Below are positions 46,541-62,018 of a stretch of 64,000 bases of DNA, piece after piece. The stretch lies in NCBI GenBank assembly GCA_018897105.1, contig JAHILF010000005.1, forward strand, positions 1 to 64,000, in the 5' to 3' direction. This stretch comes from Pseudomonadota bacterium. Its GTDB lineage: Bacteria; Desulfobacterota; Desulfobulbia; Desulfobulbales; SURF-16. Position numbers and translations under genes: made by a program. Every line of letters starts with the position of its first letter. The first letter of the stretch is position 1. The notes beneath the pieces were generated by a model. The model was not told the DNA's origin. It saw nothing but the letters and a program-made list of their open reading frames with translations, and ran no database searches.

Positions 46541-48682
46541 GTGGATCAAATTTTGGCAACCGAATCCCTGCTCCCCTGGCTTGAGCCGGAATCCTCCAAG
46601 GTTTACCTGAAGGTTTCTGCGCCGGGTAGGGATTCATCCGTGCCAGCAGTGCCGTTTGCTTTCCCACTTCTTGACGCCTCTTCGCCCCTTGCCCGCCTTG
46701 TTCCCGCCTCTTTCACTGACGGTTCACCACAGACGATCAAGGATGTCTTTCTGCTGGTGCAGAAGGACCAGTATACCTTTTCGGAAACTCAGGTGCCCTT
46801 CAGCAATCGGGATATCGATGCGATGTGGCGGCAAACCGGGGAAGTCGCGGCTGTAGATGATGGAGCCCCCATTGCCACCGGACTGCTTTGCCCGGCTGGC
46901 GGCAGCGCCGGTATGCCCCTGTGGAGGTCACTTTTTTATTGCGTGCTCCGGCAACTTTTTTTTCATCCCCCCTGTCCCCGCTGCGGTAAATTGCTGGAAC
47001 TTTGCGCTGCAGATGAGGTGCTGACTGCTGCCGGCCTGCCGGCCTATTCCTCGAGTCTGCAGCGTTTCCTTTTCTGCCCCGCCTGCCAGGGTGGAGGCGG
47101 GCAGACGGAGTTTTTCGCCTATGCCGCCCCGGATACAGCCGCTCCTTTGGTCAAAAACCGACTCGCCCTGATCGATGAATTTGCCCAACTTGTCGGCAAC
47201 AATAAAGTGGGGACGGATTTTCCCTGCCAAGACTGCCCCCAGAGCGGGGAGTGTTTCGGGCCGGGCAAACAGGCGGCAACAAGGATTATCCCCTTGGCCT
47301 TTTATCCGTTTAGAATGATCGTCACCCCTGCCCGGCAACTCCATGCCGCCGATTTTCTCTCCCTTATTTCCGGGGCGTCAGGGGCGGAACTTGCGGGCCA
47401 GCTTGAGGTAGCGGGTCTGCCGGGCCGGGCTGCCTGTGTCAAGGCCTTGGGCGGCCGGGAAGGGGGCAGGATATCCCTGTTTTTTCAAGACGCACGACGT
47501 TTTCCGGAGGTGCTCTATCTGAAACTGGCCCTGCTGGCACAGATCAGCAGAGCCGCTTTTCCCGCCTTGTCCCATCTGCAGCATGCGGATCTACGGCTTT
47601 CTATCGATCAGTTCTGGGTTGACTTTGCCGACTATGAGGGGCCATTGCCCTATTTCTGGAATTTCCGGGCTATGCCGCTGGCCATCGGTTTGACTCCGCC
47701 ACCTCCGTCCGCTTTCCTGAAGGTCCCGGAAGCCCTTGGCATCCACACCCTTTCCCTGCTGTGGTTCAATGTCCTGGTGGCAAATAGCAGCCAGACACCC
47801 CGGGATATTACGCAATCTCTCGCTGATTTTTATGAAAAGCATCAGGCAGAGGCGGAACCGGATTTTCCCGCCTCTGCCGGTTTTAGCCCCGGCAACATTT
47901 TCTGGCGGCCTGTTGCTCAACAGCTTCCTGCAGAATGGCTTGCCCTCTGGCAGCAGGCTTTGGGGCTGGGCTGGTCTCTGCTGCGCCAGTCGTGCCAGCC
48001 GGCAGCTGATTTTTCGGCAGCAACCTTCACTGCCCAGTTGGCTCGCCTGGCCGAGGAGGTGAAGCAGAGCCTGTTTGCCGTTGAGGCTGTGCCGGTTATG
48101 GCAATGCCTGCGGAAGATAGCGAGGGGGCCATCTGCCGGATCCTGCTCGACATCCGGCAGAAGTGGATGGCGGAGCTGCCAAGCGAACCCGCAGTGCAGG
48201 GAGTTGCCGCAGATGCGGCTGGTCAGGTTGAGGGGCAGGTCGTGGAGCTGCCGGAGGAAGAAGATCTGGAAAAAACAGTAATGATGACTGCGGACCAGCT
48301 TGCGATACTCATGCGGAAAGAAGCCCAGCCTGCCAGTGCCCCGCAGACCCATGTCGTTGATGAGGCACCGCCGACCATCAGCCCTGTGTCACCAGTAGGC
48401 GGGTCCCCAGCAGGCAAGTCCGCGGAGAAAACGGTGCATCCCGTCACGGATGAGCAAGCCGGTCTTGAAAAGACAGTGATCATGAGTGCCGATGCAATTG
48501 CTGCACTGCTTGCCGGCCGCAGCGGTAAAGCCACCCCCCCCGCCCCGGCACCAAGCGAGAAGAAGCCGGCACCGGCGAAACAGCAGTTGCCTGATGCCGC
48601 GGAGGCCGGGCTTTCTGAAACAGTGATGATCAATCCGAAACAACTTGAAGCGCTGAGGAAAATGAAAAAGAATGACAAATAG
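46541..48682 (+). CDS. T6SS-operon protein with Cys clusters and repeated TVMM motifs
   Basis: The 713-residue protein has a GTG start (AAAAGGATG upstream). Cys-rich segments at about 145-230 (CPRCGKLLELC, LFCPACQGG, CQDCPQSGEC) suggest metal binding. The middle is helical. The Pro/Ala-rich tail has three related motifs: LEKTVMMTADQLAILM (about 576), LEKTVIMSADAIAALL (642) and LSETVMINPKQLEALR (690). There is no signal peptide. I know no assigned family. It overlaps the next gene by 11 bp and leads the T6SS operon, so a role in T6SS control or assembly is inferred. The Thr-Val motifs resemble phosphothreonine ligands for FHA domains, which is speculation. Confidence 0.7.
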   Translation: MDQILATESLLPWLEPESSKVYLKVSAPGRDSSVPAVPFAFPLLDASSPLARLVPASFTDGSPQTIKDVFLLVQKDQYTFSETQVPFSNRDIDAMWRQTGEVAAVDDGAPIATGLLCPAGGSAGMPLWRSLFYCVLRQLFFHPPCPRCGKLLELCAADEVLTAAGLPAYSSSLQRFLFCPACQGGGGQTEFFAYAAPDTAAPLVKNRLALIDEFAQLVGNNKVGTDFPCQDCPQSGECFGPGKQAATRIIPLAFYPFRMIVTPARQLHAADFLSLISGASGAELAGQLEVAGLPGRAACVKALGGREGGRISLFFQDARRFPEVLYLKLALLAQISRAAFPALSHLQHADLRLSIDQFWVDFADYEGPLPYFWNFRAMPLAIGLTPPPPSAFLKVPEALGIHTLSLLWFNVLVANSSQTPRDITQSLADFYEKHQAEAEPDFPASAGFSPGNIFWRPVAQQLPAEWLALWQQALGLGWSLLRQSCQPAADFSAATFTAQLARLAEEVKQSLFAVEAVPVMAMPAEDSEGAICRILLDIRQKWMAELPSEPAVQGVAADAAGQVEGQVVELPEEEDLEKTVMMTADQLAILMRKEAQPASAPQTHVVDEAPPTISPVSPVGGSPAGKSAEKTVHPVTDEQAGLEKTVIMSADAIAALLAGRSGKATPPAPAPSEKKPAPAKQQLPDAAEAGLSETVMINPKQLEALRKMKKNDK

Positions 48683-49421
48683 CGCTCAGCTCAAGCAAAT
48701 AACCAAAGAAATCAGGCAGATTTATCAGGCGGACAGGGTCAATGCCGCAGCCCTGGTTGAGGAGCATCTCATTCATGCCTTGGCCGATTACAGCGCTTCA
48801 GAGCGGCTGGCCTTTCTGGAAAGATGCCTCGCCGGTTTCGGCCATATTCCCGCGGTGCCATCACCTCCTCCGGCCTCCCCGGCCGAGGTGAGTTCCGAGG
48901 CATTCAACAAGCTGTTGACAATGCTTCTTGGCAAAGAGATATTGGAGAGAGAGCTGTCAACCGAGGAGATGATCAAACACCTGGCCGCCGCCTTGAATAC
49001 CGTTTTTGATTCGGTCAATAAGCTGATAGGCGGCATCAATGCCACCCTGATGGGCAGCGCCTCGGGCGAGGAAACCATTCGGGTTGTGATCAGTTCCAGT
49101 ATTGATGAAAAGAAAGGGATCGCTTCCCTGGAGAAATATCTTGATCAGATCGGTCAGTTTTTCGCCATAGCCCTGCGGGCATATAAGGAGGCCGCCCAGA
49201 CCAAGATCGGTGAAATTTTAAATGAGCTGGATCCTGTACGTATTGCTGAAGAGAATGAAAACGGTCTGAAATTCGGGCCGTTGCGCAAGGCGCATCAGTT
49301 TGACTGCTACCAGGATAAGTATAAGACCCTGCTGAACTGGCAGCGATCCGGACTGCTCTTGGAAGCGTTTATGAAGGAATTTGAAAAAAATTGCCAAAAG
49401 CTTTATCTGAAGAGGGAGTAA
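48672..49421 (+). CDS. T6SS-associated protein of unknown function
   Basis: The 249-residue protein is cytoplasmic and helical. It has a Pro-rich linker (PAVPSPPPASPAE) after about 58 residues, then LLTMLLGKEILERELSTEEM and a C-terminal domain with ENGLKFGPLRKAHQFDCYQD. The last segment is faintly like the C-terminal region of T6SS FHA-associated proteins (TagH), but there is no FHA domain here. Its stop abuts the tssJ start codon with no gap. Together with the upstream 713-residue protein it is probably a T6SS accessory pair. Confidence 0.6.
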   Translation: MTNSAQLKQITKEIRQIYQADRVNAAALVEEHLIHALADYSASERLAFLERCLAGFGHIPAVPSPPPASPAEVSSEAFNKLLTMLLGKEILERELSTEEMIKHLAAALNTVFDSVNKLIGGINATLMGSASGEETIRVVISSSIDEKKGIASLEKYLDQIGQFFAIALRAYKEAAQTKIGEILNELDPVRIAEENENGLKFGPLRKAHQFDCYQDKYKTLLNWQRSGLLLEAFMKEFEKNCQKLYLKRE

Positions 49422-49976
49422 ATGAAAAATTATTGGAAGCTATCCTGGGGAATTTTGTGTCTTTTTTTTCTTGCATCCTGCGCCAAGGTGCCGCCGCCAC
49501 CCCCGGTACCGCCTGCGCCGCCGCAGTATTCCTACAGCAAGGATGCCGTCAAGATTCAGATCAATTCAGATTCCCAGCTGAATCTCTATCAGTCCAGCCC
49601 CCATACCCTGCTGCTCTGCGTTTACCAGCTCAGCGATCCCAACGCCTTCTACCGGCTGACCGGAGACATCGACGGCATCTACAAGCTGCTCTCCTGTAGC
49701 CAGTTCGACCCCAGCGTCACCCATTCCAAACGCTTCATTGTCCAGCCTGATCAGAAAGTCACCTATACCCTTGATCGGGCTGAGGGCACCAAGTATGTGG
49801 CCATTGGTGCGGGTTACTACAATGTCCGCAAGGAGGATGTCACGCGTCTTTTTGAAATTCCCGTCGTGGAGAAAAAATCGGAAACATCCGATACACTCCG
49901 CGTGCTGGAACCGGATGTCCTTACTGTCGATATTGACTTGGGTCCAACCAAGATCAGCAGTATTACCGGTCAATAA
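49422..49976 (+). CDS. tssJ: T6SS outer-membrane lipoprotein TssJ
   Basis: The 184-residue protein has a lipoprotein signal with lipobox LASC (Cys about residue 20), then a Pro-rich segment and the TssJ beta-sandwich (AVKIQINSDSQLNLYQSSPH, LLLCVYQLSDPNAFYRLTGD, YVAIGAGYYNVRKEDVTRLF). TssJ anchors the TssJLM membrane complex in the outer membrane. The ATG directly follows the upstream stop, with AAGAGGGAG as its ribosome-binding site. About 100 bp separate it from tssK. Confidence 0.92.
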   Translation: MKNYWKLSWGILCLFFLASCAKVPPPPPVPPAPPQYSYSKDAVKIQINSDSQLNLYQSSPHTLLLCVYQLSDPNAFYRLTGDIDGIYKLLSCSQFDPSVTHSKRFIVQPDQKVTYTLDRAEGTKYVAIGAGYYNVRKEDVTRLFEIPVVEKKSETSDTLRVLEPDVLTVDIDLGPTKISSITGQ

Positions 49977-50076
49977 ACAGCCGGCCTGACTGGCGCAAGG
50001 CCTGCCTGCCGGGCCTTGTCGATGTCCAGGCTGAAGCTGCTCCGGGGTTACAATATCCGATACATGGAAGGGGATT

Positions 50077-51471
50077 ATGGTGGATATCAACAGATCGATT
50101 TTTTGGCACCAGGGGCTTTTTCTCCAGCCCCATCATTTTCAGCAGCATGACCTGTATATCCAGGATCTGCACCAGCCGTTCCGGAAATTTCTCAATCCCT
50201 ACTTCTGGGGTGTGGCGGCCATGGAGGCCTCCCGCGGGGCGCTGGACAATTTTTCCTTTGACATCCTGAAAGGGGAGTTTGTCTTTCAGGATGGCACCTA
50301 TGTGGTCTTTCCGGGCAATGCCGTGCTGGCAAAGCGATCTTTCAAAAACGCCTGGGTTGAGGAGGACAAGCCCTTCACCATTTATCTCGGGTTGAAAAAA
50401 TTGGATGAGGCCGGCAGTAATGTGACGGAGCTGGCAAGTCTTGACAAGATCGGCGAGGTATCGACCCGCTATGTGACCCTGGCTGAACCGGAACAGATCA
50501 ATGACCTGTATGAAAACGGCCCGCCCGGCGAGGTGAAAAAACTGCATCTGGTGCTGAAACTTTTCTGGGACAGTGAAAAGGAAATGGTGGGCGATTATCT
50601 GCTTCTCCCCCTGGCCCAGCTGGAAAGGGACGGCGAGGTGATCCGCTTTGTGCCGGGCTTTGCCCCACCTGCGGTCACCCTGCAGAGTTCCGAGGTGCTT
50701 ATCCAGACCGTCAAAAACATCCGGGACCAGATCGGCAGCCGCAGCCGGCAGCTCGATGAGTACAAGGCCCAGCGCGGCATCCATACCAGTGATTTCGGCG
50801 CCCGGGACATGGTCTTCATGCTGGCCCTGCGCAGCCTGAACAGGTATGTGCCGCTGCTGTTTCATCTCACCGAGCCGGCCTTTACCCATCCCTGGCCCGT
50901 CTTCGGACTGCTGCGCCAGCTGATCGGCGAGCTTTCCTCCTTTTCCAGCACCGTGAATGTGCTGGGAGAACTGGACGACGGCCAGGCCCTGCTCGGCGCT
51001 TATAACCATAATGACCTGGGCAAATGCTTCCTGGCCGCCCAGTCCCTGATTTCCCGTCTGCTGGATGAGATCACCGCCGGCCCCGAATACATCATCAGGC
51101 TGGTCTTTGACGGAACCTATTACATCGGTGATCTGCTGCCGGCTCATTTCACCGAAGGCAACCGCTATTACCTGGTGGTGGAGACCGAGGAGGAACCTCA
51201 ACAGGTGCTCGACGCCCTGCAGGGCATCGCCAAACTCGGCTCGCGAGAGTCACTGCCGCTGCTCATTGCCCGGGCGCTGCCCGGCGTTGCTCTGGAACAT
51301 CTTGCCATCCCGCCCCAGGAGTTGCCCCGGCGGGCGCATTGCCTCTATTTCCAGATCAATCATCATGGGGATCAATGGGGCAATGTGGTGAAAGGCAACA
51401 ATTTGGCATTATACTGGGACAATGCGCCGGATGATTTCAAGGCGGAACTGATGGTCGTAGGGAGGTCGTGA
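50077..51471 (+). CDS. tssK: T6SS baseplate protein TssK
   Basis: The 464-residue protein opens with the TssK signature INRSIFWHQGLFLQPHHFQQ and contains YLGLKKLDEAG, VLKLFWDSEKEMVGDYLLLP, VLIQTVKNIRDQIGSRSRQL and a C-terminal YFQINHHGDQWGNV. TssK connects the baseplate to the TssLM membrane complex. GGAAGGGGATT precedes the ATG. Its stop falls just before the tssL start. Confidence 0.96.
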   Translation: MVDINRSIFWHQGLFLQPHHFQQHDLYIQDLHQPFRKFLNPYFWGVAAMEASRGALDNFSFDILKGEFVFQDGTYVVFPGNAVLAKRSFKNAWVEEDKPFTIYLGLKKLDEAGSNVTELASLDKIGEVSTRYVTLAEPEQINDLYENGPPGEVKKLHLVLKLFWDSEKEMVGDYLLLPLAQLERDGEVIRFVPGFAPPAVTLQSSEVLIQTVKNIRDQIGSRSRQLDEYKAQRGIHTSDFGARDMVFMLALRSLNRYVPLLFHLTEPAFTHPWPVFGLLRQLIGELSSFSSTVNVLGELDDGQALLGAYNHNDLGKCFLAAQSLISRLLDEITAGPEYIIRLVFDGTYYIGDLLPAHFTEGNRYYLVVETEEEPQQVLDALQGIAKLGSRESLPLLIARALPGVALEHLAIPPQELPRRAHCLYFQINHHGDQWGNVVKGNNLALYWDNAPDDFKAELMVVGRS

Positions 51472-51473
51472 CA

Positions 51474-52151
51474 ATGCGTTTACGGGATTGCTTTGCCGAA
51501 CTGGTGGCATATGTGGCCTATTTTTTAAAGAGCGACATCCAGAACAGTCTCTCCTACAGCCAGGTGCAGACCGATGTGCAGCGGCTGCTGTCGGAAAGTG
51601 ACACCATGGTGCGGCAGGGGCAGATTTCCAGCGAGGAATACGATGAGGCGCGCTTTGCCATCTGTGCCTGGATCGATGAGTCGATTCTTAATTCACCCTG
51701 GCAGGGCCGGACGCAATGGCAAAAGGAACTCCTGCAGCGCAGGTATTATCAGACCACAGATGCCGGTGAAGAGTTCTTTGAACGGCTGAACCGGCTTGAC
51801 CAGCAGCAGCGTGGCGCCAGGGAAATTTACTATCTCTGTCTGGCCATGGGTTTCAAGGGCAGGTATCACCAGCAAGGTGACGATCTGCTGCTCGACCAGC
51901 TCAAGACATCCAATCTCAAATACCTGCTGGGCAGCTCGGTTGGCCTGCCTGCCCTGGACCGGACCGAGCTTTTTCCCGAGGCCTACCCGGTGGAAAGCGC
52001 CGGTCCAGCCTCCGCAGCCAAACAGAGCATTTTTACCCCGGCGGCCATCGCGGTGTTTGTGTCTCCTGTGGTGCTGTTCGGAGTACTATTTTTCATTTAT
52101 ACCTTTATCTTGAATAATATCGGTGAGAATTTCCTGAAAGCGGTGTCCTGA
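51474..52151 (+). CDS. tssL: T6SS inner-membrane protein TssL (DotU/IcmH)
   Basis: The 225-residue protein has a cytoplasmic hook domain typical of TssL (LRDCFAELVAYVAYFLKSDI, RFAICAWIDESILNSPWQGR, EFFERLNRLDQQQRGARE) and one C-terminal TM (IAVFVSPVVLFGVLFFIYTF). It has no OmpA-like peptidoglycan-binding extension. The ATG at 51474 has GGGAGG upstream and is preferred to the GTG two codons earlier. It overlaps tssM by one base (TGATG). Confidence 0.95.
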   Translation: MRLRDCFAELVAYVAYFLKSDIQNSLSYSQVQTDVQRLLSESDTMVRQGQISSEEYDEARFAICAWIDESILNSPWQGRTQWQKELLQRRYYQTTDAGEEFFERLNRLDQQQRGAREIYYLCLAMGFKGRYHQQGDDLLLDQLKTSNLKYLLGSSVGLPALDRTELFPEAYPVESAGPASAAKQSIFTPAAIAVFVSPVVLFGVLFFIYTFILNNIGENFLKAVS

Positions 52152-55100
52152 TGAAACAATTCTGGCGAATACTGATAAAATCCCTCCTGGTTATCACGGG
52201 CCTTGCCCTGGTCATTCTGCTGGTGGCAGGGCTGGTCCTCATCCTGGACTGGCCCTGGTGGACCGGGTTCTTTTTTCTCCTTTTGCTATTCGGCGCGGCA
52301 ATCGGCGTTATTCTGGTGCGCAAAATTCTGCGGCGGCGCGGGGAACAGAAGTTCGTTGACCAGATCATCTCCCAGGATGATCTGAAGCTGAAGGCCATGG
52401 CGGCCCAGGAGAGAGATGAAGCGCAACTTCTCCAGGCCCGCTGGAAGGAGGCCATCGACACCCTGAAAAGCTCCCATCTGCGCAAATTCGGCAATCCCCT
52501 CTATGTCCTGCCCTGGTATCTGGTGATCGGTGAGAGCGGTTCCGGCAAAACCACTGCCATCAAAAGCGCCCGGCTGTCTTCACCCTTTGCCGCGGCAGCC
52601 CAGGTGTCGGGCATCTCGGGCACAAGGAACTGCGACTGGTGGTTCTTTGAGCAGGCGATCATTCTCGATACAGCCGGTCGTTATGCCATCCCGGTACATG
52701 AGAGCCGTGACAAGGACGAGTGGCACAGTTTTCTTGGCCTGCTGGCCAAGTTCAGGAAAAAGGAACCGCTGAACGGCCTGATCGTCACCGTCTCCGCCAG
52801 CAAACTGCTTGAGGCAAGCCAGGAGGAGCTTGAACGGGAGGGGCTGCAGATCCGTTCGCGCATTGATGAGATCATGCTGGCCATCGGCAGCAAATTCCCG
52901 GTCTACGTCATGGTGACCAAATGCGACCTGATCAAGGGCATGACCCATTTCTGCGACAAGCTGCCGGAAAAGGTGGTCAATCAGGCCATGGGGGTGATTA
53001 ATCCCCAGCACATGAAGGTAACCCCGGCCTTCTGGACCAATGCTGTGGATACAGTCAGTGAACGGGTCGGCAATCTTCTCCTGCGGGTGCTCCATGACAC
53101 CAAGTCCAGCAAAGTGGACCCGGCCCTCATTCTTTTCCCCAGTGAATTTGAAAGATTACGCACTGGCCTGCACAACTTCATGGCCAAGGCCTTCCAGGAA
53201 AACCCCTATCAGGAAACACCCATCCTCAGAGGTCTTTTCTTTACCAGCGGCAGGCAGGAAGGCACCCCATACTCCCATTTTCTCCAGAAGCTTGGGTTGC
53301 TGGGTGAGAAGGAAGTGCTGCCCGGCACCAACAAAGGGCTCTTTCTCCATGATTTTTTTGCCAGGATACTGCCCATGGACAGGGGCATTTTTGCCCCCAC
53401 CACCCGTTCCCTGGAGTGGCAGCGGCTGAGCCGCAATCTGGGACTGACCTCCTGGGTGGCCCTGATCATCGCCCTCTGCGGGCTGATGAGTTTTTCTTTT
53501 GTCAAGAACCTGCAGACCATGCGGGAGGTGCCCAAGGAGTTCCTGCAGCAGTCCGGCCCGGTGATGCAGGGGGATCTGCTGATGGATGTGGTCAGTCTTG
53601 ATCAGTACCAGCAGGCAATTCTGCGTATTGAGCAGCGGAACAAAAACTGGTGGATGCCGCGCTTCGGTCTGACCCATAGCATTGAGGTGGAGAGACAGCT
53701 GAAGGCGAAATTCAGCCAGCAGTTCAGAAAGACCTTTCTCATGCCGCTGGACAAGAGGATGGCGGACAGGATGGCGGGCTTTAATCTCGCCACCCCTGAT
53801 CAGCTGCTCAACCGCCATATCAGCCATCTGGTCCGCCGCATCAATCTTTTGAAAAAACGGCTGCAGACCAATGATTACCAAGCCTTGTCCGACATGCCCC
53901 AGGTGCCTTTTCTCATCCTGCTCTCCCAGGAGCAGAAAGAAATGATCCCGGAAATCAGAAAGAAGATGGGCAGCATCTATCTCCATTATCTCTACTGGAA
54001 TCAGGATGACAGCCAGGTCAACCTGGAGCTCACCGAGCTGCAGAACTGGCTGAAATTCTGCCTGGCCTCCAAGGGGGGGAGGCTTGACTGGCTGATTCCC
54101 TGGGCCAACGAGCAGGAGAATCTTGCCCAGGTGACGCTGGCCGACTTCTGGGGCGGCAGCAGGAATGTCCAGGATGCTGTCAGGGTGGCCCCGGCCTTCA
54201 GCCGCAAGGGCAAGGCGATGATTGACGCCTTTCTGCAGGAGATCGAGGCCGCGCTGCCGGAGCCCGGTCCTTCTCTGATCGCCCGCCAGAAACTTGAATT
54301 TGCCGACAGGTACCGCCAGAGTTATCTGGAGGAGTGGCGCAGTTTTGCCGCAGGCTTCAGCCAGGGGACAAAACGACTGGCCGGCTATGAGGAATGGCTG
54401 CCCATGGCCCAGAAGATCACCTCGTTGACCGGTCCCTATCTGACCCTGCTTGACAAGATGGCCGATGAATGCACGACGGTTGCCGGGGAGGGCAAGAGTG
54501 TGCCTGCCTGGGTGGCGCTGACCACCTCCTATCGCAACCTGCGCGCCCAGGCCGAGGTGCTGGCCAGGTCCGAAGGAGGCGGCGGCCTGCTGGCCAAGGC
54601 CGGGGAAAAGTCCATGAATCTGATTGATAAGGTGGGGCAGAAGCTTGACAGCGGCCGCCCCGAGAATCTCGAAAACCAGCTGCAGGCCGCCAAGGCCCTC
54701 AGAGACTTTCAGAACTCCCTGCAGGATGTCATGCCCACCCTGTCGCCGCGCAAGGCCGCCTATGATACCGCCGCAGCGGTGTTCAAGGATGAAAAGAACC
54801 CCATTGCCACGGGCCGGCAGGCGATTGCCAGAATGAAAACCTATATGACCTCCGGCAAAAAGGATGAAGATGTCTTCTGGGCACTGATCAATGGTTCCAT
54901 TAACTTTCTGTGGGATTTTGAAAGGGCCGAGGCTGCCTGTTATCTGCAGGACCGTTGGGAAAAGGATGTGCTGGTGGAAGTCCAGGGCATCAGCGATCAG
55001 CAGAAGGTGATGCAGCTGCTGCTTGATGAGGACGGTTATGCCATGAAGTTCGTCAAAGGTCCGGCCGCACCCTTTATCAGCAGAAACCCCAGTAAAGGGT

Positions 55101-55636
55101 ATTACGCAGTGCGGGCTCTCGATGGCCAGGTTGCCTTTGATCCGACTTTCTTTACCTTTCTGACCAAGGGGGTGAGTGCCAAGAGAACGGTCCAGGCCAG
55201 TTATGATGTGTCCATCAAGGGCCTGCCCACCGATGTTAATCAGGAGGCCATGATAAAACCCCATGCAACCCATGTTGAGCTGCAATGCGCCAGCGGCAGC
55301 GTCAAGTTGAATAACTTCCAGTTCCCGGAAACGAAAACCTTCCAGTGGTCGCCGGAAACCTGCGGGGATGTTGTCTTTGAAATTGAGGTGAGCAATCTGG
55401 TGCTCACCAAGATTTACAAAGGCAGCCGGGCTTTTGTCAGCTTTCTCCAGGACTTCAAAACCGGTCAGATGTCCTTTTATCCCGGGGACTTCCCCGAACA
55501 GAAAGAGGAGCTGCAGCGGCTGGGCATAAAATATATCAAGGTCAGCTATCAGTTTGCCGGCAACGGTCCTATTCTCCAGCTGCAGCAGGCATCCCCCGGC
55601 CAGGTGCCGTCGCGAGTGGTGCAATGCTGGGATTAG
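52151..55636 (+). CDS. tssM: T6SS membrane complex protein TssM (IcmF)
   Basis: The 1161-residue protein has two TM helices at the N-terminus (LLVITGLALVILLVAGLVLI and TGFFFLLLLFGAAIGVILV). A cytoplasmic NTPase-like domain follows with intact Walker A GESGSGKTTAIKS (about 125). A third TM lies near 435 (VALIIALCGLMSFSFV), and then a large periplasmic part. The C-terminal beta domain contains LNNFQFPETKTFQWSPETCG. It bridges the inner and outer membranes with TssJ and TssL. It overlaps tagF by 13 bp. Confidence 0.96.
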   Translation: MKQFWRILIKSLLVITGLALVILLVAGLVLILDWPWWTGFFFLLLLFGAAIGVILVRKILRRRGEQKFVDQIISQDDLKLKAMAAQERDEAQLLQARWKEAIDTLKSSHLRKFGNPLYVLPWYLVIGESGSGKTTAIKSARLSSPFAAAAQVSGISGTRNCDWWFFEQAIILDTAGRYAIPVHESRDKDEWHSFLGLLAKFRKKEPLNGLIVTVSASKLLEASQEELEREGLQIRSRIDEIMLAIGSKFPVYVMVTKCDLIKGMTHFCDKLPEKVVNQAMGVINPQHMKVTPAFWTNAVDTVSERVGNLLLRVLHDTKSSKVDPALILFPSEFERLRTGLHNFMAKAFQENPYQETPILRGLFFTSGRQEGTPYSHFLQKLGLLGEKEVLPGTNKGLFLHDFFARILPMDRGIFAPTTRSLEWQRLSRNLGLTSWVALIIALCGLMSFSFVKNLQTMREVPKEFLQQSGPVMQGDLLMDVVSLDQYQQAILRIEQRNKNWWMPRFGLTHSIEVERQLKAKFSQQFRKTFLMPLDKRMADRMAGFNLATPDQLLNRHISHLVRRINLLKKRLQTNDYQALSDMPQVPFLILLSQEQKEMIPEIRKKMGSIYLHYLYWNQDDSQVNLELTELQNWLKFCLASKGGRLDWLIPWANEQENLAQVTLADFWGGSRNVQDAVRVAPAFSRKGKAMIDAFLQEIEAALPEPGPSLIARQKLEFADRYRQSYLEEWRSFAAGFSQGTKRLAGYEEWLPMAQKITSLTGPYLTLLDKMADECTTVAGEGKSVPAWVALTTSYRNLRAQAEVLARSEGGGGLLAKAGEKSMNLIDKVGQKLDSGRPENLENQLQAAKALRDFQNSLQDVMPTLSPRKAAYDTAAAVFKDEKNPIATGRQAIARMKTYMTSGKKDEDVFWALINGSINFLWDFERAEAACYLQDRWEKDVLVEVQGISDQQKVMQLLLDEDGYAMKFVKGPAAPFISRNPSKGYYAVRALDGQVAFDPTFFTFLTKGVSAKRTVQASYDVSIKGLPTDVNQEAMIKPHATHVELQCASGSVKLNNFQFPETKTFQWSPETCGDVVFEIEVSNLVLTKIYKGSRAFVSFLQDFKTGQMSFYPGDFPEQKEELQRLGIKYIKVSYQFAGNGPILQLQQASPGQVPSRVVQCWD

Positions 55637-56364
55637 GCAGATCCGCCGGCAACTGGCAATGGCAACTATCCGGAAAGCATCCGGTGGCCAAGGATTTCTT
55701 TGTCCTCGGCGACAAAAATCCGATGGCCGAGGCCTTTGCCCAGTGGATACGCCTCGGGACCGAACAGAGCACAGCCGGCCGCGAGATGCTCGTTGCCAAC
55801 TGTTCGTGGCGGTTCTGGGCCAAAACCGGCAACCGGCAAAACCTGGTCTGCGGGGTGATGCGCAACAGCTGTGATTTCATGGGCCGTCCCTATCCGCTGC
55901 TGGTCATGGGGACGGGTGTGCTGGACAGGTGGGAGGAGAACTGGGAGCTGCTGCCCCTGGCCTGTGAAGGGCTATGGAGCCAGATGGAACAGATGGCCAC
56001 CAAGAATTACCAGGAGCTTGACCGGCTCAAGGAGGATCTGCTCATGCTCCGTCCGCCCCACGCCCGCTGGCAGGATCTGCACCGGCAAAGCGCTGAGCTG
56101 CTTGACGGGCTGTTGCCCGGCGACCTGCCTGTGCTTGCGACCGGTGAACAGGACGCCCTGTTTCTGCCCCTGCGCTGTGCGGACCATTGCGACCCCTTTG
56201 CCCTGATCATCCATCTGCACCGGGTGCTGAAAGAAAAAATCAGCGTGGTGCCCAATACCATATTTGTCGGCGGACCGCTTGAGCAGCCTGGTTTTGCCCT
56301 TTTTACCAGGCCGCTGAATATCGCTGATTTTGCCCGGATGTGGCAGCCTCTGACAGTTATATGA
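55624..56364 (+). CDS. tagF: T6SS-associated protein TagF
   Basis: The 246-residue protein matches TagF: WQWQLSGKHPVAKDFFVLGD, AEAFAQWIRLGTEQS, the aromatic core FWAKTGNRQNLVCGVMRNSC, and a C-terminal VVPNTIFVGGPLEQPGFALF. In Pseudomonas TagF restrains T6SS firing post-translationally. No PpkA/PppA kinase-phosphatase pair or FHA protein is seen in this window. It begins inside the tssM end. Confidence 0.92.
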   Translation: MLGLGRSAGNWQWQLSGKHPVAKDFFVLGDKNPMAEAFAQWIRLGTEQSTAGREMLVANCSWRFWAKTGNRQNLVCGVMRNSCDFMGRPYPLLVMGTGVLDRWEENWELLPLACEGLWSQMEQMATKNYQELDRLKEDLLMLRPPHARWQDLHRQSAELLDGLLPGDLPVLATGEQDALFLPLRCADHCDPFALIIHLHRVLKEKISVVPNTIFVGGPLEQPGFALFTRPLNIADFARMWQPLTVI

Positions 56365-56505
56365 TCTTTTTTTATTTGAAATGCATGATTTGCAGGTGAT
56401 ACAAGGTAATAAGCTGCTTTGGTTCCTCCTGCAGGAATGAATGTACATATCAGGTATGTACTTTCTGCCGCAAAACCTTAATAGATGAGAAAGGATACTT
56501 TTCTT

Positions 56506-57327
56506 GTGACAGTAAAAGAATTGATCAAATCAGGCAAACTCACTGAGGCCAGGCAGCAGCTCGTCGCCGCAGTGCGGGATAAACCGGGGGATTTGGCAGC
56601 CCGCACCCTGCTGTTTCAGGTGCTCTGCTTTTGCGGGGAGTGGGACAAGGCGGACCGCCATCTGGAGGCCATAGCCACCCAGGACCCCAGCCGGGAGGCC
56701 GGGGTTATCGGCTACCGGAACCTGATCCGGGCGGAAAAGGAACGGCTTGTGGTCATGGAAGAGGGCGGCTGCGCCTCCTTTCTGACCGAACCGCCTGCCT
56801 ATCTTACCCTTTACACCGCGGCCCGGGCCAAACTGTCTGAAAAAAAAGTGGACGAGGCGGAAGAGCTCTGCAAACGGATTGATGGGCAGATACCGGCCAT
56901 CTCGGGTGTGGCCAACGGCAGCCCCTTTGCCGGTTTCCGCGACACCGACACCCTACTGGCGCCGTTTCTTGAGGTGATGGCCCATGAACGCTATCTGTGG
57001 GTGCCCTTTGAATCCCTGCGGGAGCTCTCCATCACCCCACCCCAAACCCTGCTTGACCTGCTCTGGGTTTCCGCCCATGTCACCACCTGGGAGGGATATG
57101 CCATGAACTGCTTTCTGCCGGTATTGTACCCCGGATCCTTTATCCAGGAGGATGAGCGGATCAGACTGGGGCGGATGACCGACTGGATTTCCCTCGGCGG
57201 CTCTCTGGCCCGCGGGATCGGGCAGCACGTTTTTGAGGTGGATGGACAGGATATGGCCATTCTGGAAATTACTGATGTCACCTTCAACTTTCCCCAAATG
57301 AAAACTGACGATGAAGAGAAACATTGA
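56506..57327 (+). CDS. tagJ: T6SS accessory protein TagJ (ImpE family)
   Basis: The 273-residue protein has the ImpE/TagJ pattern: an N-terminal TPR-like pair (LIKSGKLTEARQQLVAAVRD, TLLFQVLCFCGEWDKADRHL) and a C-terminal domain with GFRDTDTLLAPFLEVMAHER, YLWVPFESLRELSI and LPVLYPGSF. TagJ contacts the TssB sheath component and is linked with ClpV recycling. I prefer the GTG at 56506, with AAAGGA 10 nt upstream, to the ATG at 56485. It overlaps tssA by 17 bp. Confidence 0.9.
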   Translation: MTVKELIKSGKLTEARQQLVAAVRDKPGDLAARTLLFQVLCFCGEWDKADRHLEAIATQDPSREAGVIGYRNLIRAEKERLVVMEEGGCASFLTEPPAYLTLYTAARAKLSEKKVDEAEELCKRIDGQIPAISGVANGSPFAGFRDTDTLLAPFLEVMAHERYLWVPFESLRELSITPPQTLLDLLWVSAHVTTWEGYAMNCFLPVLYPGSFIQEDERIRLGRMTDWISLGGSLARGIGQHVFEVDGQDMAILEITDVTFNFPQMKTDDEEKH

Positions 57328-58690
57328 TATTGAAGCGATACTGACGCCTCTGACCGGGGATAATCCCGCCGGCGAATATCTCCGCTACAGTCCGGTTTAT
57401 GACGAGATCCAGGAGGCGAGAAGGGCGGATGACATGCTTGACCGGGGTGACTGGCAGCATGAAATCAAGACCTCGGACTGGGAAAAGGTGCTGACCCTTA
57501 GTGTGCAGGCACTCTCGGAAAAGACCAAGGACCTGCAGATTGCCGCCTGGCTGCTCGAGGCCATGACCTATACCGAAGGTTTTACCGGCGTCAATGCAGG
57601 GCTGACCATCATCACCTCCTTTATGCAGGATTTCTGGGAGCATCTGTACCCCGAGATAGAGGATGATGATCTGGAATACCGCATCGGTCCTTTGGAGTTT
57701 ATCAATGACAAGCTCTGGCTGCCGATCAAGCAGATCCCGGTGACGGACAGCGCTTCCACACCGGGTTATTCATGGATGAAGTGGCAGGAATCCCGTCAGG
57801 TAGGTTCTGAAAAGGACACCCTCAACCAGTATGGCGATGTGGACGATGACAAAAAACGACAGCGCCAGGAACTGATATCGGAAGGGAAACTAACGGCCGA
57901 GGAGTTTGACGCCGCTGTTTCCGCATCCTCCAAGGTCTTCTATGTCACCCTGGCCGAGGATGTCACCGCCTGTCTTGCCCGGTTTGCCGAGCTTGACCGC
58001 GTTGTCGACGAGAAATTCGGCAGGGAGGCGCCGCGGCTGGCGGAGTTGAAATCCTCATTGGAAGATTGCGAGCAGCTGGTTACCAGAATACTGAAGGAAA
58101 AAAGGGAACGGGAGCCTGATGCAGTACCCGAAGCGGAAGAGGCCCCCTCTGATGCAGCGGCTGCGGCAGAAGACGTTCCTGTCCAGGATGTTGCTCCCCG
58201 GCAGGCGGGGCAGGCTCAGTCCTCTCCGGCTGCGGCAGGGCTAGCCGCCGCGGCGCTGCCGCCGGGTCAGTACCATGTCAATCGCCTGCTCGGTTCTACC
58301 GGCATTGAAGAGGCGGTGTGGCAGGACGCCCTGGCCAAGCTCAAGTCCGGCGGCATCAAGCAGGCCCTGGAGCATCTGCTGGGGGCCTCCTGTAGTGCCC
58401 AGTCCATCAGGGAAAAAACAAATTTTCGTCTGCTCATGGCCCGGCTCTGCCTGAAGGCCGAGCGGCCGGACCTGGCCAGGCCCATCGTCGAAGAGCTGCA
58501 TACCCTCATCGGCGAGCTGCAGCTTGAGCGCTGGGAGTCACCCATCTGGCTTGCAGAGGTGCTGGAGACACTGTACATGTGCCTCACCGCAGAAGGGGCA
58601 TCGGATGATGATCGCTATCGGGCCAGGGAGCTGTTGACCAGGCTCTGCACCCTGGATGTGACCAAGGCAATGGAATATACCCTCGAGTGA
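57311..58690 (+). CDS. tssA: T6SS cap/assembly protein TssA
   Basis: The 459-residue protein has the ImpA N-terminal domain (AILTPLTGDNPAGEYLRYSP, WLLEAMTYTEGFTGVNAGL, IGPLEFINDKLW). An Ala/Pro-rich linker lies at about 265-315. The C-terminal domain is VasJ/VasL-like (LKSGGIKQALEHLLGASCSA, ERWESPIWLAEVLETLYMCL). TssA organises baseplate and sheath assembly and caps the distal end of the tail. About 100 bp separate it from tssB. Confidence 0.92.
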   Translation: MKRNIDIEAILTPLTGDNPAGEYLRYSPVYDEIQEARRADDMLDRGDWQHEIKTSDWEKVLTLSVQALSEKTKDLQIAAWLLEAMTYTEGFTGVNAGLTIITSFMQDFWEHLYPEIEDDDLEYRIGPLEFINDKLWLPIKQIPVTDSASTPGYSWMKWQESRQVGSEKDTLNQYGDVDDDKKRQRQELISEGKLTAEEFDAAVSASSKVFYVTLAEDVTACLARFAELDRVVDEKFGREAPRLAELKSSLEDCEQLVTRILKEKREREPDAVPEAEEAPSDAAAAAEDVPVQDVAPRQAGQAQSSPAAAGLAAAALPPGQYHVNRLLGSTGIEEAVWQDALAKLKSGGIKQALEHLLGASCSAQSIREKTNFRLLMARLCLKAERPDLARPIVEELHTLIGELQLERWESPIWLAEVLETLYMCLTAEGASDDDRYRARELLTRLCTLDVTKAMEYTLE

Positions 58691-58789
58691 TGGCCCATCA
58701 GGGCGAGTTGCAACAGCGAAGGAACAATGCGATGCAATAGGTTTTGTACAGACCTTGTATCATGTGGAAAATGAAAAAGGAGGAGTAAC

Positions 58790-59317
58790 ATGGCAAAAGA
58801 AAGTCTGCAGCATACCCTGGACAGGGTACGCTCTCCGAGGGTCCAGATCACCTATGACGTGGAGGTGGGGGACGCCATCGAGATGAAGGAAATACCTTTT
58901 GTGGTCGGGGTGCTGGCCGACTTGTCAGGCAAGCCGGACAAACCGTTGCCCAAGCTGAAGGAAAGAAAATTCATCGAGATCGACCGCGATAATTTCAACA
59001 ACGTCATGGAGGGCATGAAACCGCGTCTTGCTTTTCGTGTCGACAACAAGCTGACCAATGACGATTCCCAGATTGCGGTTGAACTCCGTTTCAAATCCAT
59101 GGATGATTTCCATCCTGAACGGGTTGCCGAACAGATCACCCCGGTGCGCAAGCTGGTGGATGCGCGGCGGCGGCTTTCCGAACTGCTCAACAAACTGGAC
59201 GGCAATGACAAACTCGACGAACTGCTCCAGGATGTCATTTCCAACAGCGATTCTCTGCAGAAACTGAGCAAAGAGGCCGGTGTGGATAAAAAGGAAGATG
59301 AAAAGGATAAAGAGTAA
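58790..59317 (+). CDS. tssB: T6SS contractile sheath small subunit TssB
   Basis: The 175-residue protein matches TssB/VipA: SLQHTLDRVRSPRVQITYDV, EMKEIPFVVGVLADLSGKP, RKFIEIDRDNFNNVMEGMKP and FKSMDDFHPERVAEQI, with a charged Lys/Asp/Glu tail. It polymerises with TssC into the sheath around the Hcp tube. AAGGAGGAG precedes the ATG. tssC follows after 14 bp. Confidence 0.97.
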   Translation: MAKESLQHTLDRVRSPRVQITYDVEVGDAIEMKEIPFVVGVLADLSGKPDKPLPKLKERKFIEIDRDNFNNVMEGMKPRLAFRVDNKLTNDDSQIAVELRFKSMDDFHPERVAEQITPVRKLVDARRRLSELLNKLDGNDKLDELLQDVISNSDSLQKLSKEAGVDKKEDEKDKE

Positions 59318-59331
59318 AGGAGGTAGCAAAG

Positions 59332-60828
59332 ATGGCCGGAAATGAACAGCAGGTACAGCCGGAGGCCGCTCAGGCAACGGCAGTGCAGGAAGAAAAAAGC
59401 CTCCTGGACCAGATAATCGAGGATGGGCGTCTTGCCCGGGAGGAAAGTCAGAAACCCTGGGCCAAAGACATCGTCAGCGAGTTTGTATCCCAGATCCTGG
59501 AGGGGACGATAACGGTTTCCAAGAATACGGAGGCCATGATCAATGCCAGAATCAGCGAGATTGACAAGCTGATTTCCGCTCAGCTCAACGCGGTCATGCA
59601 TCACGAGGATTTCCAGAAACTGGAAGGTTCCTGGCGCGGTCTGTCATACCTGGTTTCCCAGTCAGAAACCGGGGAAAAGCTCAAGATCAGGGTGATGAAT
59701 GTCAACAAGAAAGATCTGCTCAAGGACATGGAAAAGGCCTCCGAGTTTGACCAGTCCGCCCTGTTCAAAAAGATCTATGAGGAAGAGTTCGGCATGTTCG
59801 GCGGCTCTGCCTATGGCGCCCTGATCGGCGATTACGAATTCAGCAATCATCCCCAGGATATCACCCTGCTGGAGAAAATCTCCCAGGTGGCGGCCGCGGC
59901 CCATGCTCCTTTCCTTTCCGCGGCAGCACCCCAGCTGTTTAATCTTGACACCTTTACCGAACTTGGCGAACCCCGGGATATGGCCAAAATCTTCCAGAGC
60001 GTTGCGTACGCCAAATGGAAGTCGTTCCGGGAATCAGAGGATTCCCGCTATGTGGCCCTGGCCATGCCCCATATTCTCATGCGCCTGCCCTACGGCAAGG
60101 CCAATGTGCCGGTGGAGGCCTTTGATTTTGAGGAGCAGGTGGACGGCACCGATCACAAGAAGTATCTGTGGGGCAATGCCGCCTATGCCCTGGGCACCCG
60201 GCTGACCGAGGCCTTTGCCAAGTATCACTGGTGCGCCGCCATCCGGGGCGTGGAGGGCGGCGGCCTGGTGCAGGGGTTGCCCGTGCATACCTTCCAGACG
60301 GACGAGGGTGATGTCGCCCTTAAGTGCCCCACCGAGATCGCTATTACCGACCGGCGTGAAAAAGAGCTGGCCGATCTGGGCTTTGTCCCGCTGCTGCACT
60401 GCAAGGGTACCGATTATGCCGCCTTTTTCAGTACCCAGTCGGCCAACAAGCCCAAAGTGTATGATACGGATGCAGCTAATGCCAATGCCAGATTGTCCTC
60501 GCAGATACAGTACATTCTTGCCGTGTCACGGTTTGCTCATTACCTCAAATCCATGATGCGCGACAAGATCGGCAGCTTCATGACCCGCAAGAACGCCGAG
60601 GATTTCCTCAACCGCTGGATCAACAACTATGTCCTGCTGGATGATAATGCCAGCCAGGAGATGAAGGCCAAGTATCCCCTGCGGGAGGCCCGTATCGATG
60701 TCAGTGAAGTACCGGGCAAACCGGGGGTTTACCGGGCGGTGAGTTTTCTCAAGCCCCACTTCCAGCTCGATGAACTGACCGTTTCCCTGCGCCTGGTTGC
60801 CGAGTTGCCGCCGCCGGCAAAGGGGTAA
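59332..60828 (+). CDS. tssC: T6SS contractile sheath large subunit TssC
   Basis: The 498-residue protein matches TssC/VipB: HEDFQKLEGSWRGLSYLV, IYEEEFGMFGGSAYGALIGD, YVALAMPHILMRLPYG, KYHWCAAIRGVEGGGLVQGL, FLNRWINNYVLLD and C-terminal RAVSFLKPHFQLDELTVSLR. It is the major sheath protein with TssB. AAGGAGGTAGC lies upstream. A repeat-bearing 156-bp gap follows before hcp. Confidence 0.97.
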   Translation: MAGNEQQVQPEAAQATAVQEEKSLLDQIIEDGRLAREESQKPWAKDIVSEFVSQILEGTITVSKNTEAMINARISEIDKLISAQLNAVMHHEDFQKLEGSWRGLSYLVSQSETGEKLKIRVMNVNKKDLLKDMEKASEFDQSALFKKIYEEEFGMFGGSAYGALIGDYEFSNHPQDITLLEKISQVAAAAHAPFLSAAAPQLFNLDTFTELGEPRDMAKIFQSVAYAKWKSFRESEDSRYVALAMPHILMRLPYGKANVPVEAFDFEEQVDGTDHKKYLWGNAAYALGTRLTEAFAKYHWCAAIRGVEGGGLVQGLPVHTFQTDEGDVALKCPTEIAITDRREKELADLGFVPLLHCKGTDYAAFFSTQSANKPKVYDTDAANANARLSSQIQYILAVSRFAHYLKSMMRDKIGSFMTRKNAEDFLNRWINNYVLLDDNASQEMKAKYPLREARIDVSEVPGKPGVYRAVSFLKPHFQLDELTVSLRLVAELPPPAKG

Positions 60829-60865
60829 AGGAACTGTTTAGCTGATGAGCTGTTGAGCTGCTGAA

Positions 60866-60902
60866 CGTCATTCCGGGCAAGCGAAGCGCGACCCGGAATC
60901 CA
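60866..60902. repeat. GTCATTCCGGGCAAGC palindromic repeat, copy 2
   Basis: Almost identical to 3139-3175 (GTCATTCCGGGCAAGC...GCGACCCGGAATCCAT). It lies between tssC and hcp within the T6SS operon. The surrounding AGCTGTTGAGCTGCTGA-like bases also hold short repeats. It may modulate the mRNA level of the downstream genes. Confidence 0.75.
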
Positions 60903-60984
60903 TGAATAAGCTGTTAAGTTGATAAGCCATGAGCCATAAACCATGAGCTATTAGACAGAAAAAACTTAAAGGAGGAGAAACACT

Positions 60985-61473
60985 ATGTCAGCTGATAATT
61001 ATCTGCAGATTACCGGAATAAAGGGCGAAAGTACGGATGACAAACATAAGGATTGGATCGAGATTCTTTCCTTTAACTGGGGCGTTTCCCAGATGGCCTC
61101 GGCCTCCCAGAGTACCTCCGGCGGCGGGACCAGCCAGCGGGCCGATTTCCAGGATCTCTCCATCGTCAAGTTGATGGACAGCGCCTCGCCATTGTTGTTC
61201 AAGGCCTGCGCCACAGGCGTACATCTCGATGAGGTGAAACTGGAGCTGTGCCGCGCCGGCGGCGATAAGCTGCTCTACATGGAGTACATCATGAACAATG
61301 TCATTATCAGTTCGCTCAGCGTCGGCGGCGGTGGCGGCGGCGAACCCACGGAATCGGTCACCTTCAACTACGGCAAGATCAAGTTGAATTATATCAAGCA
61401 GGCCCGCAAGGGCGGCGGCGCCTCGGGCAACGTGCCTGCCGGCTGGGATCTTCAGAACAACAAGGACTTTTAA
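60985..61473 (+). CDS. hcp: T6SS tube protein Hcp (TssD)
   Basis: The 162-residue protein is of Hcp1 type: MSADNYLQITGIKGESTDDK, WIEILSFNWGVSQMAS, FQDLSIVKLMDSASPLLFKA, and C-terminal ESVTFNYGKIKLNYI. It forms hexameric rings that stack into the inner tube and can carry effectors. AAAGGAGGAG precedes the ATG, a strong site fitting high expression. It sits between tssC and tssE. Confidence 0.96.
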   Translation: MSADNYLQITGIKGESTDDKHKDWIEILSFNWGVSQMASASQSTSGGGTSQRADFQDLSIVKLMDSASPLLFKACATGVHLDEVKLELCRAGGDKLLYMEYIMNNVIISSLSVGGGGGGEPTESVTFNYGKIKLNYIKQARKGGGASGNVPAGWDLQNNKDF

Positions 61474-61491
61474 GCCGCTAAGACCGTGCTG

Positions 61492-61962
61492 ATGAAAAAG
61501 AGCCAGGCGGCCCAGGCCTCCATACTGAGCAGGCTCGTGGACCAGGAACCTGCTGTCACCCATGAGCCTGCTCAGCAACTTTTCTCCGTTGGTCAGATCA
61601 AGGATGCCGTAGCGCGGGATCTGGAAAATCTCCTGAATACCAGGAGAAATATCATTACCCCGCCTGCTTCGTACCGGGAGGTCGGCAACTCCCTGTTTGT
61701 CTATGGTCTGCCTGATTTCACCAGCCGGAACCCGGCCCACATCGCGGTGCGGTCCCAGTTGCGTCTGGAAATTGAAAAGACCATCTCCCATTTTGAACCG
61801 CGGTTGAAAAATGTTGCCGTGCATATTGATTCCCCCGGGGCAATGGGCAGGAATCTGCAATTCAGAATTACCGGGGTGTTGGTGGTGGAATCCATAGCCG
61901 AACAGGTGGTTTTCGACACCAGTTTTGATTTGAACAGAAGCAGATACTCCATCCTGAAGTAG
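61492..61962 (+). CDS. tssE: T6SS baseplate protein TssE (gp25-like)
   Basis: The 156-residue protein has the gp25/lysozyme-like fold of TssE: SQAAQASILSRLVDQEPA, then the family motifs IKDAVARDLENLLNTR, EVGNSLFVYGLPDFTSRNPA, LRLEIEKTISHFEPRLKNVA. The start is ATG 61492; the GTG two codons earlier is less likely. TssE joins TssFGK in the baseplate wedge. It lies 18 bp after hcp. Confidence 0.93.
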   Translation: MKKSQAAQASILSRLVDQEPAVTHEPAQQLFSVGQIKDAVARDLENLLNTRRNIITPPASYREVGNSLFVYGLPDFTSRNPAHIAVRSQLRLEIEKTISHFEPRLKNVAVHIDSPGAMGRNLQFRITGVLVVESIAEQVVFDTSFDLNRSRYSILK

Positions 61963-62018
61963 CCGGGCAGGGATGGGTTTACCGAGCTGTATTACTTCAG
62001 GATTTTTTTGAGACGGTC

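Follow-up and report, generated by a model that had tools for sequence, protein, structure and literature searches.

A T6SS operon protein with a degenerate kinase-like body and repeated threonine motifs, and its proposed place in a split Fha-type phosphorylation pathway

T6SSs that are controlled by threonine phosphorylation differ between bacteria in their phospho-target, which is either Fha or TssL. In P. aeruginosa the target is Thr362 of Fha1 (PMC5995506), and in Acidovorax Fha is phosphorylated by PpkA and condensates are formed (PMC12607579). The A. tumefaciens Fha requires phosphorylation of Thr14 in order to bind a TssL peptide with its FHA domain, the Kd being 1.6 mM for the peptide DLPpTVVEI and 0.54 mM for a longer peptide (PMC3953482). 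Here we describe a protein, named g1, from a T6SS operon within a stretch of 64,000 nucleotides, which was analysed as a whole and is referred to as the window. As judged from conservation, genomic context, predicted fold and co-occurrence, the system to which g1 belongs is most likely a split version of the PpkA/PppA/Fha threonine phosphorylation pathway and not a separate kind of system. Like this pathway it is linked to a T6SS and has a TagH-like gene, g2, in front of TssJ-TssK, and it comprises a Ser/Thr kinase, a PP2C phosphatase and FHA proteins as well as a putative ligand similar to DLPpTVVEI (PMC3953482). However, the FHA domain is absent from g2 and apparently resides on a tandem-FHA protein of its own. 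Moreover, a new protein with a multi-site tail takes the place of TssL or Fha as the proposed ligand, and the kinase and phosphatase genes are usually found away from the core operon.

The reading we prefer, with a probability of roughly 60%, is that g1 serves as a scaffold and phospho-switch for T6SS assembly, with a tail that the tandem-FHA protein reads in trans and with g2 acting at the TssJ/K/L/M complex. A Ser/Thr kinase encoded elsewhere would phosphorylate the threonines of the g1 tail and a PP2C phosphatase would reverse this, the tandem-FHA protein (contig C90, 334 aa) would bind the phosphothreonines via its intact FHA1, and at the TssJ/K/L/M complex g1 would have g2 as its partner. 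The function of a canonical Fha/TagH would thus be divided in three, since in the proposed scheme g1 is the phospho-ligand, g2 the core-binding domain and the tandem-FHA protein the reader in trans. The multiple sites of g1 would give a multivalent threshold for T6SS assembly, the direction of this control being presumed; as the number of sites differs between homologues, multivalent binding would determine assembly, perhaps via condensates like those reported for PpkA-Fha in Acidovorax (PMC12607579). Whether all of this amounts to the Fha switch in a split and multivalent form, made up of a scaffold derived from a dead kinase that mostly has 2-9 phosphothreonine sites, an FHA-less TagH, a tandem-FHA reader and a kinase/PP2C pair, is in our estimate an even call. 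Since the proposed ligand and its reader are separate proteins and the repeated sites are near-identical, phospho-binding, valency and the effects of Thr-to-Ala exchanges are directly testable with peptides and one FHA domain.

The g1 gene and its family in T6SS operons

The gene g1 (46541..48682, forward strand as all features named below) begins with a GTG start codon, the position of which is the same in the aligned homologues, and ends with a TAG stop codon, its 3' end being overlapped by the start of g2 (48672). A sequence-only reading had described it as the first gene of a T6SS operon, encoding 713 residues with three Cys-pair segments and a tail with three TV(M/I)(M/I) motifs. The open reading frame and the downstream gene order agree with this, and the pairs C145/C148, C179/C182, and C229/C232 are present, as are the motifs LEKTVMM, LEKTVIM, and LSETVMI. 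The operon has the order g1-g2-TssJ-TssK-TssL-TssM-TagF-ImpE-TssA-TssB-TssC-Hcp-TssE-TssF, the T6SS genes from TssJ onwards covering positions 49422..63824. Among these, TssJ, TssK, TssL, TagF, ImpE, and TssA were identified by Pfam/NCBIfam searches, and TssM, TssB, TssC, Hcp, TssE, and TssF were named by sequence and gene order, not by family search. The contig (C74) runs on past the window and beyond TssF for another 5.2 kb (64001-69204, L027).

Among 97 genomes, namely that of the window and 96 relatives that were searched, g1 is present in ten, and in the relatives concerned it stands directly before g2 wherever the contig permits. When 84,980 species genomes were scanned, 69 g1 loci were obtained, many of them in MAGs; the hosts are mostly Desulfobacterota, and Nitrospirota, anammox Planctomycetota, a member of the Zixibacteria, Acidobacteria and others also occur. 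A recognisable g2 follows g1 within 325 bp in 54 of the 57 loci that have room downstream, the remaining three being distant outgroups (Zixibacteria L120, Acidobacteria L121 and L123), and wherever a contig extends for more than 2.5 kb downstream of g1, TssJ/TssK are present. Homologues without T6SS linkage, which would have spoken against the sequence-only reading, were therefore not encountered, and the profile search and inspection of genomic context that it had proposed place the family in T6SS operons. g1 is thus a widely conserved protein of these operons that was previously undescribed: Pfam, NCBIfam, and PHROGs gave no match to it and have no model of the family, yet it is found in T6SS operons of Desulfobacterota, where it is frequent, of some Nitrospirota, of anammox Planctomycetota and of others. 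Openly licensed papers contain neither a description of the g1 family, be it from Desulfobacterota, from Geobacter or from anammox bacteria, nor an account of it as a T6SS pseudokinase.

Threonine motifs of the tail

The motifs lie in the tail of g1 (residues 547-713, 48179..48679), and AF2 confidence is below 50 for its modelled part (547-573). Motif 1 is LEKTVMM with T579 (48266..48286), motif 2 is LEKTVIM with T645 (48464..48484), and motif 3 is LSETVMI with T694 (48611..48631); a decayed copy, AEKTVHP (48422..48442), is found between motifs 1 and 2. In the alignment of the nine closest homologues the columns of T579 and T694 do not vary. Motif 3 stands close to the C-terminus, which is usual in the family, as the last copy is 9-22 residues away from the end in most tail-bearing members. 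These members have from 1 to 9 strict copies, mostly 2-9, and the window g1 has three. In 63 homologous tails the core motif was observed 194 times, compared to 2.2 times expected when each tail was shuffled with its composition kept, and the motif is kept across phyla. Pro, Ala, and Glu abound in the tails, which may suggest that the repeats are low-complexity noise of a disordered tail, but given this excess at kept composition and the conservation across phyla the probability of noise is practically nil, and the shuffle test rules it out. When any residue was allowed at the central position, Thr occupied it in 166 of the 167 loose matches, Ala in one and Ser in none. Poor conservation of the threonines, the other finding that would have counted against the sequence-only reading, is therefore not seen. 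The three outgroups L120, L121, and L123 have no such motif.

Averaged over the family, a site has acidic residues at -7 to -4, L/I at -3, E or K at -1, the Thr, V/I, I/V and L/I/M, followed mostly by S and P. The short amphipathic helix that had been noticed after each motif is hence plausible in the window protein and its near relatives and does not extend to the wider family, which mostly has S and P at this place. The tail sites have the traits of FHA ligands, with a fixed Thr that is never replaced by Ser, acidic residues upstream and a hydrophobic residue at +3. These flanks resemble the published consensus for a bacterial Thr kinase, as PknA-dependent sites of M. tuberculosis are acidic at -1 and from -3 to -6 and carry Leu/Val at +3 (PMC7164672). 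Moreover, the g1 consensus D-L/I-x-E/K-T-V-I/V-L resembles the TssL phosphothreonine peptide DLPpTVVEI of A. tumefaciens (PMC3953482). The earlier proposal that the repeats are docking sites similar to phosphothreonine ligands of FHA domains is thereby supported at the sequence level, as the Thr is fixed, the flanks fit published sites and a tandem-FHA gene co-occurs with g1.

The motifs may also be ordinary docking peptides, which for example add a beta strand to a T6SS core protein and keep the Thr for packing. The T-V-I-L core is prone to form a beta strand and the last copy is near the C-terminus in most homologues, as it would be for a docking tip. However, invariance is limited to the Thr and the flanking residues vary across the g1 family, the acidic run upstream fits kinase and FHA sites, and FHA, PP2C, and kinase genes co-occur with or are adjacent to g1, so we consider such packing unlikely. 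In the genome of the window the pattern EKT(V/I/M)(I/M) in acidic context is confined to g1, the other matches being single and without acidic context; within the window itself, too, the acidic EKTV-type motif is found in g1 only. In one Desulfobacterales locus (L081:2670-7439) g1, g2, and a canonical FHA-TagH gene are found together, and there the g1 motifs look decayed.

Kinase-like body and Cys-rich insert

The AF2 model of residues 1-573, built with 49 sequences, has a mean pLDDT of 84.6 and a pTM of 0.84. The best 50 PDB matches in Foldseek are all protein kinases, including IRAK4 and the pseudokinase IRAK3, with probabilities of up to 1.00, weak E-values (best 7e-3) and a TM score of about 0.44 on the target. 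The profile of the whole g1 family has no match among kinase profiles and gives chance matches only against PDB sequences, whereas the outgroups alone do match: their profile aligns to Ser/Thr kinases in three colinear parts, the N-lobe (3e-4), the catalytic loop PHLDLHPQSVL against IIHRDISPQNIL of kinases (3e-6), and helix F (with DLYSLGMMLWALL; 9e-5). With approximate limits, a part similar to the N-lobe spans residues ~20-141 (46598..46963; from AF2, Foldseek, column counts and the outgroup profile) and one similar to the C-lobe residues ~245-510 (47273..48070; from the homologue alignment, AF2, Foldseek, column counts and the outgroup profile). The outgroups retain the beta-3 Lys (VAVK-type), a catalytic-loop-like motif of the HLDLHP type and a DLYSLG-type motif. 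In the tail-bearing family, the column of the beta-3 Lys is mostly Leu or Val (Leu72 in the window g1), the Asp of HxD is kept in 18 of 49 sequences, and no DFG was seen among these 49. Because the catalytic residues are lost, g1 can be read as a putative dead kinase, which differs from PpkA and other active Ser/Thr kinases by the missing beta-3 Lys, conserved HRD Asp, and DFG.

Between the two lobes lies the best conserved part of g1, a Cys-rich insert from C134 to C238 (46940..47254) with nine conserved Cys. The three CxxC pairs and the single residues C134, C155, and C238 are invariant in the nine closest homologues, and each of the nine is kept in 47-49 of 49 sequences. Judged by this pattern, the insert is a probable zinc-binding region. 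Altogether, the model and the alignments indicate that the g1 body has a degenerate, catalytically dead protein kinase fold with a Cys-rich insert. It would share the overall two-lobe fold with protein kinases and pseudokinases such as IRAK4 and IRAK3, but differ from them by the lost catalytic residues, by the insert between the lobes and by the fact that some homologues have no more than a remnant of the C-lobe. The short homologues L021, L038, and L039 are without roughly residues 280-545, which is most of the C-lobe part, and keep the Cys region and the tail; the tail is therefore independent of the C-lobe. That g1 is an active kinase which phosphorylates its own tail could be assumed from the kinase fold and from the Lys and HLDL motif of the outgroups. 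Nevertheless, this is highly improbable, since short homologues without most of the C-lobe still have the tail, and it was rejected because the catalytic residues are gone in the tail-bearing family.

TagH-like neighbour, tandem-FHA protein and candidate kinases

The gene g2 (48672..49421) encodes a protein of 249 aa without an FHA domain that is similar to the C-terminus of TagH (PF20232, 19.0 bits at a cut-off of 23.7). All ten members of the g2 alignment match PF20232, the best with 1.9e-5, the g2 profile matches one canonical TagH weakly, and the AF2 model of g2 is of low confidence. Like TagH/Fha (PF00498 and PF20232), g2 is located directly upstream of TssJ-TssK, and it may have the PF20232 C-terminal domain, for which its score in the window is below the Pfam cut-off, but unlike there neither g1 nor g2 has an FHA domain. 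In the outgroups the positional counterpart of g2 reaches 37.9 bits for PF20232 in L120, which is above the Pfam cut-off, and in L121 it combines an FHA domain with a sub-threshold PF20232 match. Together with L081, in which a canonical FHA-TagH gene comes after g2, this suggests that g2 may derive from a TagH by loss of the FHA domain.

No FHA domain is encoded in g1, g2 or elsewhere in the window, and the genome of the window has six. In five Desulfuromonadales loci (L082, L091, L102, L111, and L122), of which L091 is from Geobacter sp. OR-1 (NZ_BAZF01000006), a tandem-FHA gene stands immediately upstream of g1. The genome of the window has an orthologue of this gene on contig C90 (L030:4150-5154, reverse strand, 334 aa), near one of the two PP2C phosphatase genes found in this genome. 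The residues R34, S50, R51, H53, and N76 of FHA1, which are of the phosphothreonine type, are invariant in 13 of 13 sequences, and the second FHA domain is degenerate. A full-length orthologue is present in 9 of 10 relatives with g1 and in 0 of 87 without it (Fisher p = 7e-12, kinship ignored). Furthermore, none of the five relatives that have a T6SS without g1 (G010, G011, G050, G078, and G084) contains it (p = 0.002, kinship ignored), and therefore the tandem-FHA protein is tied to g1 and not to T6SSs in general. Among 50 distant genomes, with a threshold of at least 100 bits, it was found in 43 of 47 with a tail-bearing g1, as compared to none of the three outgroups that have no tail (p = 0.002, kinship ignored). 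It is missing in the other four tail-bearing genomes and in G074, where assemblies may be incomplete. The sequence-only reading had hinted at a kinase-FHA layer encoded outside of the window, and the co-occurring gene on contig C90 is in line with this. Between the tandem-FHA and PP2C genes, a small conserved protein of ~82 aa (ETQHLEKRFGVIAIE...) is encoded at L155:1378-1623, L156:6420-6740, and L157:7365-7607. TssB/TssC-like genes are found near the tandem-FHA gene in the distant genomes L195, L196, L201, L203, and L208, with two TssC-like genes in L203.

The tandem-FHA/PP2C/kinase module may as well serve the same T6SS by acting on another target, such as TssL or the kinase itself, and the g1 tail may bind something else. 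The phosphothreonine is carried by TssL in A. tumefaciens (PMC3953482) and by Fha1 in P. aeruginosa (PMC5995506), and the tandem-FHA genes are often distant from g1. However, as the three outgroups without tail have no tandem-FHA gene and the acidic motif in the window is confined to g1, such a separate target is quite improbable, and g1 as the ligand of the tandem-FHA protein is preferred.

Of 32 distinct tandem-FHA neighbourhoods, 20 contain a PP2C gene and 16 a Ser/Thr kinase gene, as counted with profiles that were partly built from some of the same loci. The g1-bearing chromosome of G058 has, ~30 kb from g1, a module in which kinase, PP2C, and tandem-FHA genes are together, near PAAR- and VgrG-like genes. 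The best candidate kinase of the window genome is encoded on contig C49 and is 66% identical to a kinase near the FHA gene in G018. An exclusive, dedicated partnership with g1 is ruled out by orthologues that also occur in genomes without g1, and the C49 kinase is therefore a candidate only. A second kinase module on contig C5 (L028, 7441-12902) has genes for an FHA-adenylate cyclase, an FHA-FHA protein, a kinase-WD40 protein, and PP2C; its FHA proteins have GDETVAFL and GDETVFVN beside the FHA domain, a motif similar to that of g1. Contig C49 (L029, 6082-17038) contains genes for a TPR lipoprotein, a LysM-polysaccharide deacetylase, an adenylate cyclase, and kinases, as is the case in G018 (L157). 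Further on, a LysM/peptidoglycan-binding gene is followed by a gene for a protein of 665 aa, which is possibly secreted.
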